A model generated the notes under the pieces. The model did no database searches, was not told the DNA's origin, and saw only the letters and a list, made by a program, of their open reading frames with translations. Of a DNA stretch of 64,000 bases, positions 55,720 to 64,000 are shown piece by piece. The position numbers and the translations under genes are program-made. The stretch comes from Holdemania sp. Marseille-P2844. GTDB lineage: Bacteria; Bacillota_I; Bacilli_A; Erysipelotrichales; Erysipelotrichaceae. The stretch spans positions 62,001 to 126,000 of the forward strand of contig NZ_LT635449.1 in assembly GCF_900120005.1 (NCBI RefSeq), in the 5' to 3' direction. Numbering within the stretch: the first letter of the stretch is position 1; the number at the start of each line of letters is the position of its first letter.

Positions 55720-55937
55720 CTACCGTCCGCTGTTTTAAACTGATCCGTTTTTTTGTCTGCTTTTCCCCAAGGAATTCATAACAGCGGATGAACCCGCAAC
55801 AAAAAGGTTGAACCTTAATCAGGGACGTTCTGGTTATGACGTTAGCAGACTGGCTTTAAGCCTTAGCCGATGTTCCGTTTTTTTCATTTCATCCTTAAAA
55901 GAATCGGATGCCTCTTGGCTTACTATCGAAACAGAGT

Positions 55938-56015
55938 AAAAAAGTTAAATTCACTTCCAAGATGTAAATGTTTTCAGGCAAAAAACGAATTTTTAGAAAA
56001 AAATTTAACTTTTTT
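55938..56015. repeat. Long inverted repeat, 14-bp arms, 50-base centre
   Basis: AAAAAAGTTAAATT and AATTTAACTTTTTT are perfect complements in an A/T-rich stretch just upstream of an unrecognised gene. The stem would put six T at its end, so it could act as a terminator or attenuator, or be a small decayed mobile element. The rest of 55720-56079 shows only short palindromes (AAGGTT-GAACCTT area, GGCTTTAAGCC). Confidence 0.7.
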
Positions 56016-56079
56016 TATATTTCAGCAAGGCTTTTTGAAAAAAAACGCAATATTAAAGGTAGAAAGCGAGGAACAAACT

Positions 56080-56772
56080 ATGCCGGAACCATCACTCAAC
56101 GAGTATTTTAACCTGACCAACGATCTGCTTTTCAAATTAATCATCTCCAGCCTGCCCCATTCCATGAATAAAAACGTCGGATCCACGATGGTTTTTACCG
56201 TCGATTCCGAAACTTTGAATTCTGAATATTCGATTGGCATCGGCGTCCAGGTCGGTGATTTCATGGTGCTGGGCGTTCAGACCGTTACGGCCTGGCGGAC
56301 TGCGTCTATCCGGACGAAAGCGCTGGTCAGCGAATTGCTTGCCGCTCAATCCCCTGACATCAAGGAAATCGAAGAAGCACAGCCGATCGTGGCCGTTTCG
56401 TTTGTCCTGAATCCTGCCTCGTACCGGAAATGGAAAGCGCCGCAGACCTTGCGTTTATCTGATTTCGGTTTGTTTACGCCGTTTGAGGATAAGGTCACAA
56501 TGGTCGTCATTCCGCTGCCGGCACAGGATGAAAGCTTCACCCCGCCGCTTTCTCAGGAAGATCAATGGCGCTGGTTCATCAAAGAAGCCCGCCCGCACAG
56601 TCAGTCCCCGATCGTCGAAGCGTTAATTAAAATGGATCCGGTCTTCGAAGTCATGCAGCGGAATCTGGACAGGCTCAGCGATCAAAAACCGATCTGCGAA
56701 GTGATGAAAAAGCGTTATCTGCGGATGCAGGAAATTATTCAGGAGGAAGAAAAAGCCGCGATGCGAGCCTAA
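56080..56772 (+). CDS. Unrecognised 230-residue protein, perhaps Rpn-like
   Basis: A longer frame starts at 55870, but GAGG lies 8 bases before the ATG at 56080 and the upstream part is A/T-rich and not protein-like. The protein starts MPEPSLNEYFNLTNDLLFKL and ends KKRYLRMQEIIQEEEKAA. The C-terminal WRWFIKEARPHSQSPIVEAL ... LDRLSDQKPICEVMKKRY pattern recalls the tail of Rpn/PD-(D/E)XK transposase-like nucleases, but the nuclease D-x-E-x-Q is not evident (GVQTVT stands where EIQ would be). No membrane helix or signal peptide. Confidence 0.7.
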   Translation: MPEPSLNEYFNLTNDLLFKLIISSLPHSMNKNVGSTMVFTVDSETLNSEYSIGIGVQVGDFMVLGVQTVTAWRTASIRTKALVSELLAAQSPDIKEIEEAQPIVAVSFVLNPASYRKWKAPQTLRLSDFGLFTPFEDKVTMVVIPLPAQDESFTPPLSQEDQWRWFIKEARPHSQSPIVEALIKMDPVFEVMQRNLDRLSDQKPICEVMKKRYLRMQEIIQEEEKAAMRA

Positions 56773-58235: not shown

Positions 58236-58398
58236 TTCCTGTTCCCCTTTTTTAAACCTTGTTTTTCATTATATCAAACCCCGGCTTAAATTTGAATGAA
58301 AACTTTTCTTTTCCTCCGCATTTCTTTCCTTGTTCTGTTTCATCTTTTCACCGTTTCAGCATTCATCCTTTTCAGCCTCTTTTCCTTCCCTGAATTTA

Positions 58399-58467
58399 AC
58401 CGTTTGACCCGCAAAACCGACCGTCTGTCGGAAAGCGGATGTATCCTGCCGGGATTTCCGCTATACT
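58399..58467 (+). promoter_or_regulatory. LytTR-type direct repeats and promoter
   Basis: ACCGTTTG at 58399 and ACCGTCTG at 58420 are exactly 21 bp apart, the two-turn spacing of LytTR-domain sites (consensus near TACCGTTNG). A -10 TATACT stands at 58462 with no good -35 (GATGTA), as expected of an activated promoter. The next gene encodes a LytTR protein, so positive autoregulation is likely. Confidence 0.75.
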
Positions 58468-58506
58468 AGGGTCAGATCAAGAAAACAGCCAAAGGAAGTG
58501 ATGAAC

Positions 58507-58947
58507 ATGAAGGTTGAGATTCAAATCGACGAGAACTGCGGCGAACCCCGGCTCATCGTCCTCACCCGCCAGGTCACTGACGAAATCCAGACGCTGATTC
58601 AATCCTTATCCAATACGCCCGCCGCGTTTCTTGCGGGGTTTCAGGAGGATGAACTCGTCCTGCTTCAGCCCCGGGAAATCATCCGCATCTATGCCCAGGA
58701 AAAGAAAACGATTGCGGAAGCCGAGAAAGGCCGGTTTATCGTCCGGCTGAGTCTGCAGGAAGTCCAGACCCGGCTAAGTCCGGGGAATTTCGTCCGGATT
58801 TCCCATTCGGAAATCATCAATCTGAGCAAGGTGAACCATTTTGACTTAAGCTTTTCCGGTACGATCTGCGTAACGCTGACCAACGGCGCGCAGACTTACG
58901 TTTCCCGGCGCTACGTTTCCAAAATCAAACAAGCATGTGGAATATGA
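58507..58947 (+). CDS. LytTR family DNA-binding regulator
   Basis: The 146-residue protein has about 45 residues of N-terminal strand-rich sequence, then a LytTR domain: ELVLLQPREIIRIYAQEKKT, RLSLQEVQTRLSPGNFVRIS, HSEIINLSKVNHFDLSFSGT and YVSRRYVSKIK. It lacks a receiver domain. Stand-alone LytTR proteins paired with a DUF3021 membrane protein form LytTR regulatory systems in Firmicutes (for example HdrRM or BrsRM of streptococci), where the membrane partner restrains the regulator. GGAAG fits the ATG at 58507. Confidence 0.92.
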   Translation: MKVEIQIDENCGEPRLIVLTRQVTDEIQTLIQSLSNTPAAFLAGFQEDELVLLQPREIIRIYAQEKKTIAEAEKGRFIVRLSLQEVQTRLSPGNFVRISHSEIINLSKVNHFDLSFSGTICVTLTNGAQTYVSRRYVSKIKQACGI

Positions 58948-58956
58948 GGTGAAACC

Positions 58957-59418
58957 ATGAAAAAGAAAATGATCCTGACCGGTCTGTTCGGAGCGCTTGC
59001 CGGTGTGGCCCTTTCCACGCTGATCACGCTGGCGATCTCGCTGATGCACAACAACGGGCACTATTACGCGGTGGTTCCGGAGCTGATCGTCTTCTGCGGC
59101 TCGGAGGTCAGCGCGATGCTCCTGCAAACGCTCTGTTCGATGCTTTACGGCGCGATCTGGGCGGCTGCCAGTCAGATCTGGTCCATCGAAAGCTGGAGCT
59201 TACTCAAGCAAACGCTTGTTCATTTGATCGTCTGTTCTTCCGGAACGCTGCCGATCGCCTACTTCATGTGGTGGATGCCGCACACGCTGATCGGTTTCGG
59301 TTGTTATTTCGGCCTGTTCTTCACAATTTACGCCATGATCTGGCTGATTGAATACAGCCTGATGAAGCGCCGGGTGAACCTGCTGAACCGGCAGCTGAAA
59401 GCGCACAATCAAGCCTGA
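58957..59418 (+). CDS. DUF3021 four-helix membrane protein, partner of LytTR
   Basis: The 153-residue protein has four membrane helices (GLFGALAGVALSTLITLAIS; then about residues 42-66, 79-100 and 108-130) and a basic tail, the DUF3021 layout. It starts 9 bases after the LytTR gene, so the two are co-transcribed. It probably holds the regulator inactive at the membrane until a signal arrives. Confidence 0.9.
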   Translation: MKKKMILTGLFGALAGVALSTLITLAISLMHNNGHYYAVVPELIVFCGSEVSAMLLQTLCSMLYGAIWAAASQIWSIESWSLLKQTLVHLIVCSSGTLPIAYFMWWMPHTLIGFGCYFGLFFTIYAMIWLIEYSLMKRRVNLLNRQLKAHNQA

Positions 59419-59469
59419 ATCCAAGCTGTAAAATTGGACTTAAACAAACGGAAACACTGCAAAAACAAG

Positions 59470-59520
59470 AAAAACCGGCCTGTGCAAAGTTGGAAACAAA
59501 ACCTTGCACGGCCAGTTTTT
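59470..59520. terminator. Bidirectional terminator between DUF3021 and nagA
   Basis: AAAACC.GGCC.GTGCAA pairs with TTGCAC.GGCC.GTTTT over about 17 positions with small bulges; A tract before, T tract after. Confidence 0.87.
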
Positions 59521-59587
59521 ATGTTGTGATCATGGGAGTCTCCGCCGGATTTTCTTTCTTGTTGTTTGTGAGTTTCTCACGCTTTTC

Positions 59588-60790
59588 TTAAGCAACGCTG
59601 GTTTTCAAAAAATCCGGGTTGACCGTCAGGACGTCGCCTTTTTGATAAGCGCAGCGACCTTCGATAAAGGTTTTCATCAGCTGAAAATCAGCGTCGACAA
59701 CGATCAGATCCGCGTCCTTGCCCGCGGCAATCGAGCCTTTATGCGGCAGGCTGAACAAGACCGCCGGATTTTCCGAGGTCATTTTAACGATCTCCGTGAT
59801 CGGTTTATGCGGCATTTCCGCCAGATTCCGAACGCCGTAAAGCATGTTTTTGGAGCTGCCCGCAATCGTTCCGTCTTCCAGCAGCACCAGCCCTGCTTCG
59901 CTGATCGTCCGTTTATGTCCGCGGATCGTATAAACGCCCGCCGGCAGTCCGCTCATCGGCCCGGAATCGGAAATCATGATAAAGCGCGACATCGGTTTGA
60001 TCCGGAACATGATTTCCAGCATTGGCTGACTGATATGAAACAGATCGCAGATGACCTCGCTGAAGATTTGATCGGAAAGCAGCGCCGCACCATACGCGCC
60101 GGGTTCGCGCCGGTCCATTTGCCGCATCGCGTTGCCGGTATGGGTTGAACACGCCAGCCCCTGTTCGATCGCCCGATTATATTCCGCAAACGTCGCGACG
60201 GTATGCCCGCCGCTGAGCAAGACGTTCTGACTGCGGCAGAAACGGATCAGTTCGCCCTGCGGATCCAGCTCCGGCGCCATCGTCATATATTGGATCTGAC
60301 CCTGGCTGGCTTCAATATATGCCCGCATTTTCTCAACGGAGGGCCCAAGCAGCTCTTCCGGCTGAAATGCACCGCGCCGGTTTGGATTGAGGAACGGTCC
60401 TTCCATGTGAATGCCGAGCATCCGCGCTTCCCCGTTTAAGCCCTGCTTTTGTTCGCCGATCGCCTGCGCGATCGCCGCCAGATTTTCCATTTCCGTCTCA
60501 TTGTGATCACCCGCCGTCACCAGATAGCTCGTCACGCCGACCGCCGCCATCTGTTTGGACAGCGCATGAAAATCTTCCGGTTTCGTCGACAAGGCCGAAT
60601 AGCCGTAATAACCATGCGTATGAATGTCGATCAGTCCCGGCAGCAGCTTGTACCCGCGCCAGTCCTCATCCCACGCTTCCTCCTTTAACTCATCCGCCGG
60701 CACAAGCTGAGCGATCTTTCCATCCTCCACGATGACCAGTCCGTCGATCACGCCCGCCGGGGTTACGATTTCATTGCAGCGTATTTTCAT
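59588..60790 (-). CDS. nagA: N-acetylglucosamine-6-phosphate deacetylase, copy 1
   Basis: The 400-residue amidohydrolase removes acetate from GlcNAc-6-P or a related amino-sugar phosphate. Motifs: metal site GLIDIHTHGYYGYSALS, Glu in GIHMEGPFLN, GGHTVATFAE, STHTGNAMRQMDRREPGAYG and catalytic Asp in MISDSGPMSGLPAG. STHTGNAMRQ replaces the common VTHLFNAM, so it belongs to a divergent branch. It follows a second nagA-like gene and PTS genes. Confidence 0.9.
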   Translation of the reverse strand: MKIRCNEIVTPAGVIDGLVIVEDGKIAQLVPADELKEEAWDEDWRGYKLLPGLIDIHTHGYYGYSALSTKPEDFHALSKQMAAVGVTSYLVTAGDHNETEMENLAAIAQAIGEQKQGLNGEARMLGIHMEGPFLNPNRRGAFQPEELLGPSVEKMRAYIEASQGQIQYMTMAPELDPQGELIRFCRSQNVLLSGGHTVATFAEYNRAIEQGLACSTHTGNAMRQMDRREPGAYGAALLSDQIFSEVICDLFHISQPMLEIMFRIKPMSRFIMISDSGPMSGLPAGVYTIRGHKRTISEAGLVLLEDGTIAGSSKNMLYGVRNLAEMPHKPITEIVKMTSENPAVLFSLPHKGSIAAGKDADLIVVDADFQLMKTFIEGRCAYQKGDVLTVNPDFLKTSVA

Positions 60791-60811
60791 GAATTTCTTT
60801 CTCCTTTTCGT

Positions 60812-62038
60812 TTAGTCCAGCTTCTGACAGAACTGTGAAAAATGCTCGTTGGTCAAAATCGGATCCGCGGACGTATAGACCCGCCGCCCCTCGACCCATG
60901 TTTCCTGAACCTCGTAGCGGTCGTTGATTATGAAGAAATCCGCGTCTTTCCCCGGAGCGATCGAACCCTTCTGCGCTTCGATCCCCAACAGCCGGGCCGG
61001 ATTCAGCGACGCCATCCGGCTGACCCGCTGCGGCGCCAGCCCCAGTTTTTCGATCAGGTTTTCCATCCCGTAGAGAACATATTTTGAGCTGCCGGAAATC
61101 GTGCCGTCATCCAGCAGAATCCGCCCGTCGGAATGTACGTGGACGCGCTTGCCATAAGCGAAATAGGTGCCCGGTTCCACCCCGGAGAGCGTGTCGGAGT
61201 CGGAAATCATGATGAACTTGTCAAAATTATGCTTTATTCGGAACATGATTTCCAGCATCCGCGGCGCGAGATGATAGAAATCACAGATGATTTCACAGAC
61301 GACCTCCGGATCCAGCAGCGCCGCGCCCAAAGCGCCGATATCACGCCGGTCGATCTGGCGCATCGCATTGCCGGTATGGATCGATACCTGGATACCGTCC
61401 CGAACTGCCTGACACATCTGTTCGTCATCCGCCAGGGTATGACCGGCCCCCGCGACAATCCCGTGTTCCCGCAGCCAGTGAATCGTTTCCGCCGCGCCCG
61501 GCATTTCCGGTGCCAGCGTCATATACTTGATCTTCCCGCGGGCCGCCTGCCAATACGCCTCGCACTTTTCCACGCTTGGCAGAATGACTTCTTCCCGCGG
61601 CGTCGCGTTGTGCTTGTCCGGATTGAAAAACGGCCCTTCCATGTGAATGCCTAAAATCCGCGCCCCCATCACGCCTTCGTCCAATGCCTCCGCGATCGCG
61701 CTGAGCATCTCCATCTCATGCGCCTTCCAGCCCGAGGTTGTCGCCAGCGTCGCCGTGACTCCAATCGAAGGCAGAATTTTCGATAAGCCCTGGATTTCCG
61801 CCTTGTCGATCGTTTTGGCTGACCAGCTGCGATAACCGTGGCTGTGCAGGTCGATGATGCCCGCAAAGATCCGCTGATCCGCAAAATCCCGGGCCGCCGC
61901 GATCTGCGCCGGATTTGGATTTTCGATCAGACCCGCAAACTTCCCGTCTGCGACCTGCAGCACCCCTTCCACCATGCCCTGCTCCGTCAGGATCCGGCGG
62001 CTGTAAAATGAAACTGTTTCGTTGCCCAATGTCGTCAA
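60812..62038 (-). CDS. N-acetylglucosamine-6-phosphate deacetylase, copy 2
   Basis: The 408-residue paralogue shows the same motifs: GIIDLHSHGYRSWSAKTID, GIHMEGPFFNPDKHN, GAGHTLADDEQMCQAV, SIHTGNAMRQIDRRDIGALG and MISDSDTLSGVEPG. The first metal motif is HSH rather than HTH. It is 21 bases upstream of copy 1 and 58 bases after the PTS IID gene. Two diverged copies suggest two substrates (for example GlcNAc-6-P and GalNAc-6-P or a disaccharide phosphate) or cooperation. Confidence 0.9.
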   Translation of the reverse strand: MTTLGNETVSFYSRRILTEQGMVEGVLQVADGKFAGLIENPNPAQIAAARDFADQRIFAGIIDLHSHGYRSWSAKTIDKAEIQGLSKILPSIGVTATLATTSGWKAHEMEMLSAIAEALDEGVMGARILGIHMEGPFFNPDKHNATPREEVILPSVEKCEAYWQAARGKIKYMTLAPEMPGAAETIHWLREHGIVAGAGHTLADDEQMCQAVRDGIQVSIHTGNAMRQIDRRDIGALGAALLDPEVVCEIICDFYHLAPRMLEIMFRIKHNFDKFIMISDSDTLSGVEPGTYFAYGKRVHVHSDGRILLDDGTISGSSKYVLYGMENLIEKLGLAPQRVSRMASLNPARLLGIEAQKGSIAPGKDADFFIINDRYEVQETWVEGRRVYTSADPILTNEHFSQFCQKLD

Positions 62039-62096: not shown

Positions 62097-62909
62097 TTAT
62101 AACAGACCGATCAGCGTTCCGATCAAACCGAACGCAAAGATTGCCAGAATCACCGTATTGACCTTGACGCCCTTGCGGATCGCACCGAAGGCTCCCAGCG
62201 TCAATAAGAGCGGCAGAATCTTCGGCATGATCTGATCGAAGACCTCCTGCAGCACCAGCGTTGTTTCGCCGATCTGCGCTGTAAACCCAACGTTGAACGT
62301 CACCATCGTCGCGATCATCGCACCGACCGTCGTCAAGCCGATCACCGTCGCCAGCTTGGTCATGTGCTGAATCAGACCGTTTTCATACGAAGTCTGAATA
62401 AACTTCGAGCCCAGCTGATAGCCCCAGATCGTGCAGTAATACCGGATGATCAGATGCGGCACGTTGAACAGAAGCAAGAACAGGATTGGGCCGAGAATGC
62501 TGCCCTGCTGCGCCAGCGAAATCCCGACGCCCGCCGCAATGACGCGGAAAGTTCCCCAGAAAAACGAGTCCCCGATGCCCGAAAGCGGCCCCATCAGGGA
62601 AACCTTGACCGCATTGATCGTCGAAGGATCCATATCTTTTTTCTCGGCGTATTCTTTTTCCATCGACGCGGCCATGCCTAACGAGAACGTGCAGATGTTC
62701 GGTGTGATATTGAAGAACGCGGTATGCCGTTTCAGCGCTTCGACTTGTTCCTGCGGCGTTTTGCAATAGAGCTTGATCGCCGGGAACATCGCCCAGGCAA
62801 AGCCCAGCGCCTGCATCTTTTCATAGTTGAACGAGCCTTCCAAAGCGAAGGAGCGCCAAAACAGCTGGCTGATCAGTTTTTTCTCATCGGATTTCATCAC
62901 GTTACTCAT
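62097..62909 (-). CDS. PTS mannose/fructose/sorbose/GalNAc family IID component
   Basis: The 270-residue membrane protein has the IID pattern: LFWRSFALEGSFNYEKMQAL, GFAWAMFPAIKLYCKTPQEQ, FFNITPNICTFSLGMAASME and GPLSGIGDSFFWGTFRVIAA. With IIC it forms the sugar channel. GAGGAGG lies 9 bases before the ATG at 62909, which overlaps the IIC end by 8 bases. Confidence 0.94.
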   Translation of the reverse strand: MSNVMKSDEKKLISQLFWRSFALEGSFNYEKMQALGFAWAMFPAIKLYCKTPQEQVEALKRHTAFFNITPNICTFSLGMAASMEKEYAEKKDMDPSTINAVKVSLMGPLSGIGDSFFWGTFRVIAAGVGISLAQQGSILGPILFLLLFNVPHLIIRYYCTIWGYQLGSKFIQTSYENGLIQHMTKLATVIGLTTVGAMIATMVTFNVGFTAQIGETTLVLQEVFDQIMPKILPLLLTLGAFGAIRKGVKVNTVILAIFAFGLIGTLIGLL

Positions 62910-63699
62910 TGAAGAACGCCTCCTCTTCACTTTGGGCATCCGGCTGCGCCGCCATCCGCGGAGTGCGGGATGCGCTGATATCCTGAACGATCATGACGAT
63001 CCCGATCGTCGCCGCAATGCCGGCAATCGCGATAATCGGCAGATTCAGATAGACTGATAAAATGAAGCCGAAGAACAGAAAGACGCACAGCCGGTTATCC
63101 CAAAGCATGTTCATCAACAACGCGAAGCCGACAGCCGGCAGCATCTGGCTGGCCGCGCCCAGGCCGGTGATGATGATCGCCGGGATTTTTTTGACCAGCG
63201 CCTGCATCGCTCCAGCTCCAAACTGCAGCGAAACAAACGCGATCAGGCCGTACAGCGCGGCATACAGCGCACAGTGACCGAAATGGAAGCGCGTGATCTT
63301 CCCAAAATCGCCCGCTTCGGCGAATTCCTCGACCTTGTGCATCGTCGTCGCACGGAAGAAATAAACGAGATATTTGACCATCTGCTGAAGAATTCCGATC
63401 GGAACCGCCAGCGCCAGCGCGATCTCTACGCCCTGATGCATGCTCATGGCGAAGGCCGTGCCCAGCACCGACCCCATGTTGGAATCCGACGGTGTTGCGC
63501 CGCCGATCGACACCACGCCTAAGAAGATCAGTTCCAGCGCCGCGCCCATGATTAACCCTTGTTGTAAATCGCCGAGGATCGCACCAACTAACGGAGCCAG
63601 AACAATCGGCCGGTTAACCATGACGTTGCCGCCGATATCCCCCGCCGCCTGACCGGCTGCCGCCACCAGGGCGATCAGAAGTGCTTGAACCAGTGTCAT
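62902..63699 (-). CDS. PTS mannose/GalNAc family IIC component
   Basis: The 265-residue membrane protein has the IIC start MTLVQALLIALVAAAGQAAG and GNVMVNRPIVLAPLVGAILGDL, GAALELIFLGVVSIGGATPSD. Lies between IIB and IID. The downstream deacetylases suggest an N-acetylated amino sugar as substrate. Confidence 0.94.
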   Translation of the reverse strand: MTLVQALLIALVAAAGQAAGDIGGNVMVNRPIVLAPLVGAILGDLQQGLIMGAALELIFLGVVSIGGATPSDSNMGSVLGTAFAMSMHQGVEIALALAVPIGILQQMVKYLVYFFRATTMHKVEEFAEAGDFGKITRFHFGHCALYAALYGLIAFVSLQFGAGAMQALVKKIPAIIITGLGAASQMLPAVGFALLMNMLWDNRLCVFLFFGFILSVYLNLPIIAIAGIAATIGIVMIVQDISASRTPRMAAQPDAQSEEEAFFNE

Positions 63700-63711
63700 A
63701 AACAGTCCTCC

Positions 63712-64000
63712 CTATTTCCGGACGTTTTTCAACGCCTCTTTGACCTGAACCTTGTTGCTCGTCGGGATCATCTGAATTTCAAACGGCAGACCGGCCGCCA
63801 GAATTTCTTCGATCGCCGCGATGTCCGCGTCGTCGACATAGACTTCCTTGGTCATCATCATCCGGTCCCCTTTGTCGATCCGCCCGCTGTTGCCGATGTT
63901 GACCCGTTCGATGACCGACTTGTCTTCAATCTTTTGCAGCAAACGCGCCGCATCGACCGGATTTTTCATCACGACCAGAATGTTCATGCCCGCCGCACGG
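63712..64000 (-). CDS. PTS mannose/GalNAc family IIB component (C-terminal part)
   Basis: About 96 C-terminal residues are in view (RAAGMNILVVMKNPVDAARL ... MIPTSNKVQVKEALKNVRK); the active-site His lies beyond the window edge. The visible part fits IIB: VVMKNPVDAARLLQKI, then VNIGNSGRIDKGDRMMMTKE. The ATG at 63987 is internal, since the frame stays open to base 64000 in the family's usual AAG context. Confidence 0.9.
   Translation of the reverse strand, partial: RAAGMNILVVMKNPVDAARLLQKIEDKSVIERVNIGNSGRIDKGDRMMMTKEVYVDDADIAAIEEILAAGLPFEIQMIPTSNKVQVKEALKNVRK

Follow-up and report, generated by a model that had tools for sequence, protein, structure and literature searches.

The LytTR-DUF3021 operon

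The window analyzed here, a 64-kb stretch of a Holdemania genome, carries a two-gene operon that is preceded by a pair of direct repeats and a promoter and closed by a terminator-like hairpin (Table 1). The sequence-only reading placed a LytTR gene and a membrane partner behind this promoter, and the domain matches listed in Table 1 bear this out. The genome as a whole encodes one DUF3021 protein and six LytTR domains.

TABLE 1 Features of the LytTR-DUF3021 operon, with positions given in the window
Feature	Positions	Strand	Evidence
Direct repeat 1, distal putative LytTR half-site, ACCGTTTGA	58399..58407	+	Sequence; position aligned in 78 elements, CC invariant
Direct repeat 2, proximal putative LytTR half-site, ACCGTCTGT	58420..58428	+	Sequence; 21 bp from repeat 1
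10-bp spacer, repeat 2 to -35 slot; conserved A-rich block, then C	58429..58438	+	Column conservation, 78 elements
-35 slot, ATGTAT, degenerate in the window; TKGAAA-like in the family	58439..58444	+	Aligned elements
-10 box, TATACT, 33 bp downstream of repeat 2	58462..58467	+	Match of at least 5/6 at exactly 33 bp in 73/78 loci
Shine-Dalgarno-like AAGGAAG	58492..58498	+	Sequence
LytTR transcription regulator, 146 aa	58507..58947	+	Pfam PF04397, 78 bits
DUF3021 membrane protein, 153 aa, four predicted transmembrane helices, proposed inhibitor	58957..59418	+	Pfam PF11457, 110.5 bits
Terminator-like hairpin closing the operon	59462..59528	+	Fold of -25.7 kcal/mol, z = -4.71; T run at the 3' side

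The LytTR match is the sole domain of the 146-residue regulator, in which we found no receiver domain and an N-terminal part of about 50 residues. Its gene has two alternative in-frame starts, GTG at 58498 and ATG at 58501. The structure model of the protein (pLDDT 88.6) matches 3d6w (E value of 7e-9) and the LytTR structures of AgrA. For the second protein, in which PF11457 is likewise the only domain and no kinase domain is present, AlphaFold2 predicts a four-helix membrane protein (pLDDT 92.3) with helices at residues 2-31, 50-76, 82-103, and 111-152; comparison with the PDB gave no significant relative of solved structure, either by sequence or by fold. An MKKK at the N terminus and a long, basic helix at the C terminus suggest that both ends lie inside the cell, and the conserved segment W75-x-x-E78-x-W80-S81-x-x-K84-Q85-T86 would therefore face the cytoplasm. 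To judge from comparison with Holdemania filiformis, both genes are under purifying selection, with dN/dS well below 1 (dN 0.018 and dS 0.091 for the LytTR gene; dN 0.017 and dS 0.079 for the DUF3021 gene).

Beyond the operon lie two tandem genes on the reverse strand (59588-62038) that resemble the N-acetylglucosamine-6-phosphate deacetylase gene nagA, the first recognized by family search and the second judged from its sequence. The convergent nagA-like gene may share the hairpin. Adjoining this pair, at 62097-63987, are genes that resemble a mannose-type PTS, again judged from sequence. The open reading frame at 55870-56772 has no Pfam or NCBIfam match; Holdemania massiliensis has similar frames ending in RYLRMQEIIQEEEKAAMRA, in duplicate, at the corresponding place, and related ones are found there in H. 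filiformis.

Repeats and promoter

The control region reads ACCGTTTGA, 12 bp, ACCGTCTGT, 10 bp, ATGTAT, 17 bp, TATACT, and is followed by the start codon at 58507; each repeat is 9 bp long. Direct repeats 21 bp apart had been claimed for a range that runs from the first repeat to the stop codon of DUF3021, and both the letters and the spacing proved exact. Taken by itself, the repeat pair in the window proves nothing beyond chance: at this spacing the 64 kb contain 109 pairs of 8-mers with at least 7/8 identity, or about one per 590 bp. The exact repeat pattern is found once in the 3.68-Mb genome.

The frequency of such pairs gives a reading of the repeats as a chance match without function its one argument, and conservation settles the matter. 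From named genome records we collected the top 80 LytTR orthologues (identities of 47 to 96%), which come mostly from Lachnospiraceae, Oscillospiraceae, and other Clostridia, together with Holdemania; the close relatives are H. filiformis, with a LytTR protein 96% identical, and H. massiliensis, at 73%. DUF3021 directly follows LytTR in 79 of the 80 loci, and 78 have enough upstream DNA for repeat scoring. With score weights that were fixed by hand ahead of the scoring, from LRS repeats in the literature and a few initial relatives, 77 of these 78 upstream regions hold a repeat pair above the cut-off, compared to a mean of 4.8 and a maximum of 9 in 100 rounds of shuffling. The repeat spacing is exactly 21 bp in all 77, and 73 of the 78 loci have a -10 box, at an identity of at least 5/6, exactly 33 bp after repeat 2. 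Aligned, all 78 elements have the CC in both repeats, and the columns of the half-sites, the -35 slot, and the -10 box are conserved. Because so many orthologues keep the repeats at identical spacing, a chance pair is refuted, and we give that reading virtually no weight.

The promoter had also been described as lacking a -35 hexamer. This holds in the window, where the slot reads ATGTAT, but not as a rule of the family, in which a TKGAAA-like hexamer is conserved there. Two A-rich blocks ending in C are conserved as well, one before repeat 2 (58413-58418) and the other in the 10-bp spacer that follows it (58432-58437). Both fall outside the published 9-bp LRS repeat, and they may represent an extended LytTR contact or an UP-like element. 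Compared to the family, the window retains most of both blocks and has lost most of the -35 hexamer. A third ACCGTTT, at 58350, was considered as a further repeat and set aside, as it is not conserved in the three-species intergenic alignment.

Relation to known LytTR regulatory systems

The LytTR Regulatory System (LRS) was defined by Zou et al. in 2018 as a class that includes HdrRM, BrsRM, and a DUF3021 type, in which a LytTR regulator is followed by a small membrane protein, often DUF3021 or DUF2154 and without a kinase domain, and the operon is preceded by repeats 12 bp apart and 10 bp upstream of the -35 (PMC6193735). The layout was tested in Streptococcus mutans by EMSA, reporters, and deletions of the membrane proteins, and the systems, although widespread, were as of 2018 characterized only in that species (PMC6193735). 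The main text of that paper does not name Holdemania, Erysipelotrichia, or Lachnospiraceae (PMC6193735), and in the literature searched we found no functional study of DUF3021 beyond it.

By its domains and layout, the Holdemania pair is a member of this published kind. The regulator has PF04397 and no receiver domain, and the adjoining downstream gene encodes a small transmembrane protein, DUF3021, that has no kinase domain. The earlier proposal of a switch of the HdrRM/BrsRM type thus stands as to the assignment to the LRS family and the geometry of autoregulation, with LytTR and DUF3021 behind repeats that are 12 bp apart and end 10 bp before the -35 slot. HdrRM and BrsRM of S. mutans share the two-gene order, LytTR regulator and then small membrane protein (PMC6193735), whereas the repeats ACCGTTTGA and ACCGTCTGT differ from those published for them. 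Another published example is SACOL_RS12395/RS12400 of Staphylococcus aureus COL, called a "putative novel LRS" of a type widespread in Gram-positives, in which LytTR precedes DUF3021 in the same order and LRS repeats lie upstream; its repeats, however, are 9 bp from the -35, compared to 10 bp in Holdemania, and the S. aureus membrane topology is called distinct (PMC6193735). The LytTR domains of AgrA and ComE have the same DNA-binding fold as the Holdemania model, but these two are two-component response regulators with receiver domains, and the Holdemania protein has neither a detected receiver nor an adjoining kinase partner.

Search for further sites

No bacteriocin or competence genes adjoin the operon, as had been remarked, and this is not peculiar to the locus: no gene family is a neighbor of the pair in more than 6 of 79 loci, and the LytTR-DUF3021 module stands alone. 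The divergent sodium-symporter gene is not favored as a target, since the arrangement occurs only in Holdemania among the loci examined and the promoter of the element points the opposite way.

A sequence profile built from 37 elements scored the operon at 42.9 bits in the genome of the window; the next match, at 15.9 bits, covered the promoter part only. In Holdemania the 75-bp profile found nothing apart from the operon beyond ordinary promoter halves. We also searched with a pattern of the repeats plus a -10 box at 33 bp, allowing at most two mismatches. In all three pair-carrying Holdemania genomes it matched the operon perfectly and a second LytTR operon at one mismatch; the remaining matches were at control level and not common between species. 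Another genome of this GTDB genus, 2.0 Mb in size and without a LytTR match, lacks the site as well. A looser repeat pattern was rejected as a list of the regulon in the genus, its match counts being below those of the reversed-pattern control.

We extended the profile to 50 further pair-carrying genomes, mostly draft MAGs. Each has one strong match (28.6 to 65.3 bits), at the promoter of its own operon; many of these sites were in the training set of the profile, which inflates their own scores and leaves the absence of others unaffected. Six weak extras scored 20.5 to 25.2 bits, two of them by paralogous LytTR-DUF3021 pairs. Matches to the repeats only numbered 82, compared to 69 for the reversed-pattern control; 41 of the 82 are at operons by count, and the remainder shows no excess. 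One Ruminococcus-type genome, G092, has sites with this geometry before a paralogous LytTR-DUF3021 operon (C13:29762-29830) and before the gene of a 754-residue secreted protein (C9:4111), a candidate for a real target of the paralogue. Finding the latter site means that the search is able to see extra sites. In the genomes checked, the control site is nearly always present at the operon's own promoter only, for a scan that requires the complete pair at 21 bp, mostly with the -10 box at 33 bp, and so would miss divergent targets. This near-uniqueness is a new point. The targets had been called unknown and a scan for the regulon proposed; that statement can now be sharpened to no second such site in the genome of the window and few or none in the 50 others.

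An ordinary LRS with a real regulon, reached through degenerate, single, or differently spaced sites, is a serious alternative whose chances we put somewhat short of even. It competes only with the view that there is no regulon, and the confidences in the two overlap. HdrR and BrsR have bacteriocin and competence genes among their targets (PMC6193735), whereas the Holdemania pair has no such neighbors, and the scan turned up no further site like that of the operon. The repeats of the S. mutans operons, hdrRM among them, diverge from the published LytTR consensus, which describes target repeats (PMC6193735), so a search with an operon motif could miss true targets. The site before the 754-residue protein also speaks for a regulon, in a genome that has a second LytTR-DUF3021 pair. 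Against it are the repeat pairs in the 50 genomes, which are not in excess over the control, and the Holdemania profile search, which returned only promoter halves besides the operon.

The second LytTR operon lies outside the window (G000:C12:208500-213500) and encodes a 470-residue membrane protein, a 174-residue LytTR protein, and a small membrane protein, a layout that recurs in H. filiformis and H. massiliensis. The element before it, at C12:210777-210845 on the reverse strand, consists of GCCACTTAG and GCCGCTTAC 12 bp apart, with TACAAT 33 bp downstream. Recurrence of this element at the same 33-bp distance in three Holdemania species might suggest that the LytTR-DUF3021 pair also controls, or is controlled by, the second operon, and one promiscuous LRS does control the other LRS operons in S. 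mutans. Such cross-regulation is nonetheless unlikely in our estimation: the profile of the LytTR-DUF3021 family's sites misses the second-operon site, which is most simply read as that operon's own autoregulatory site.

Proposed mechanism

The reading that we consider probable is a stand-alone LRS, positively autoregulated, restrained by its membrane partner, and without a recognizable regulon. The activation, inhibition, membrane capture, and signal in what follows are what we infer for it, guided by where the sites lie and by the S. mutans precedent (PMC6193735). From the two half-sites, which lie on the same face of the helix a short way upstream of a weak sigma-70-type promoter, the bound LytTR protein would recruit RNA polymerase and raise transcription of its own gene and of DUF3021. 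The four-helix DUF3021 protein, translated from the same message, would hold the regulator at the membrane in an inactive state, to be freed by a signal from the membrane or envelope. Such a loop would be positive at its promoter, with the membrane partner setting the limit. Inhibition by DUF3021 is presumed from its putative S. mutans homologues.

Positive feedback would also fit the position of the repeats. Repression by the LytTR protein of its own promoter is compatible with the sequence, but we regard it as very improbable: the sites lie upstream of the -35 slot without overlapping the promoter, an activator-dependent promoter would be expected to have a weak -35, as this one does, and in S. 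mutans five LRS operons are expressed more strongly once the membrane protein is gone (PMC6193735).

Since the genome has no further promoter that can be clearly recognized as built in this way, the output of the positively autoregulated loop would be mainly the level of the DUF3021 membrane protein, or else further targets with clearly different sites. A bolder version, that the large LytTR-DUF3021 family of Clostridia and Erysipelotrichia has no operon but its own to regulate, with DUF3021 as the effector and LytTR merely setting its amount, strikes us as tentative and rather doubtful.

A control element that is fixed to the base pair across distant families, and recognizable nearly always at its own promoter only, raises the question of what the loop does. 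What the locus adds to the LRS is a loop that is seemingly self-contained, and the choice at stake is between a self-contained membrane-protein switch and an ordinary regulator with divergent target sites.
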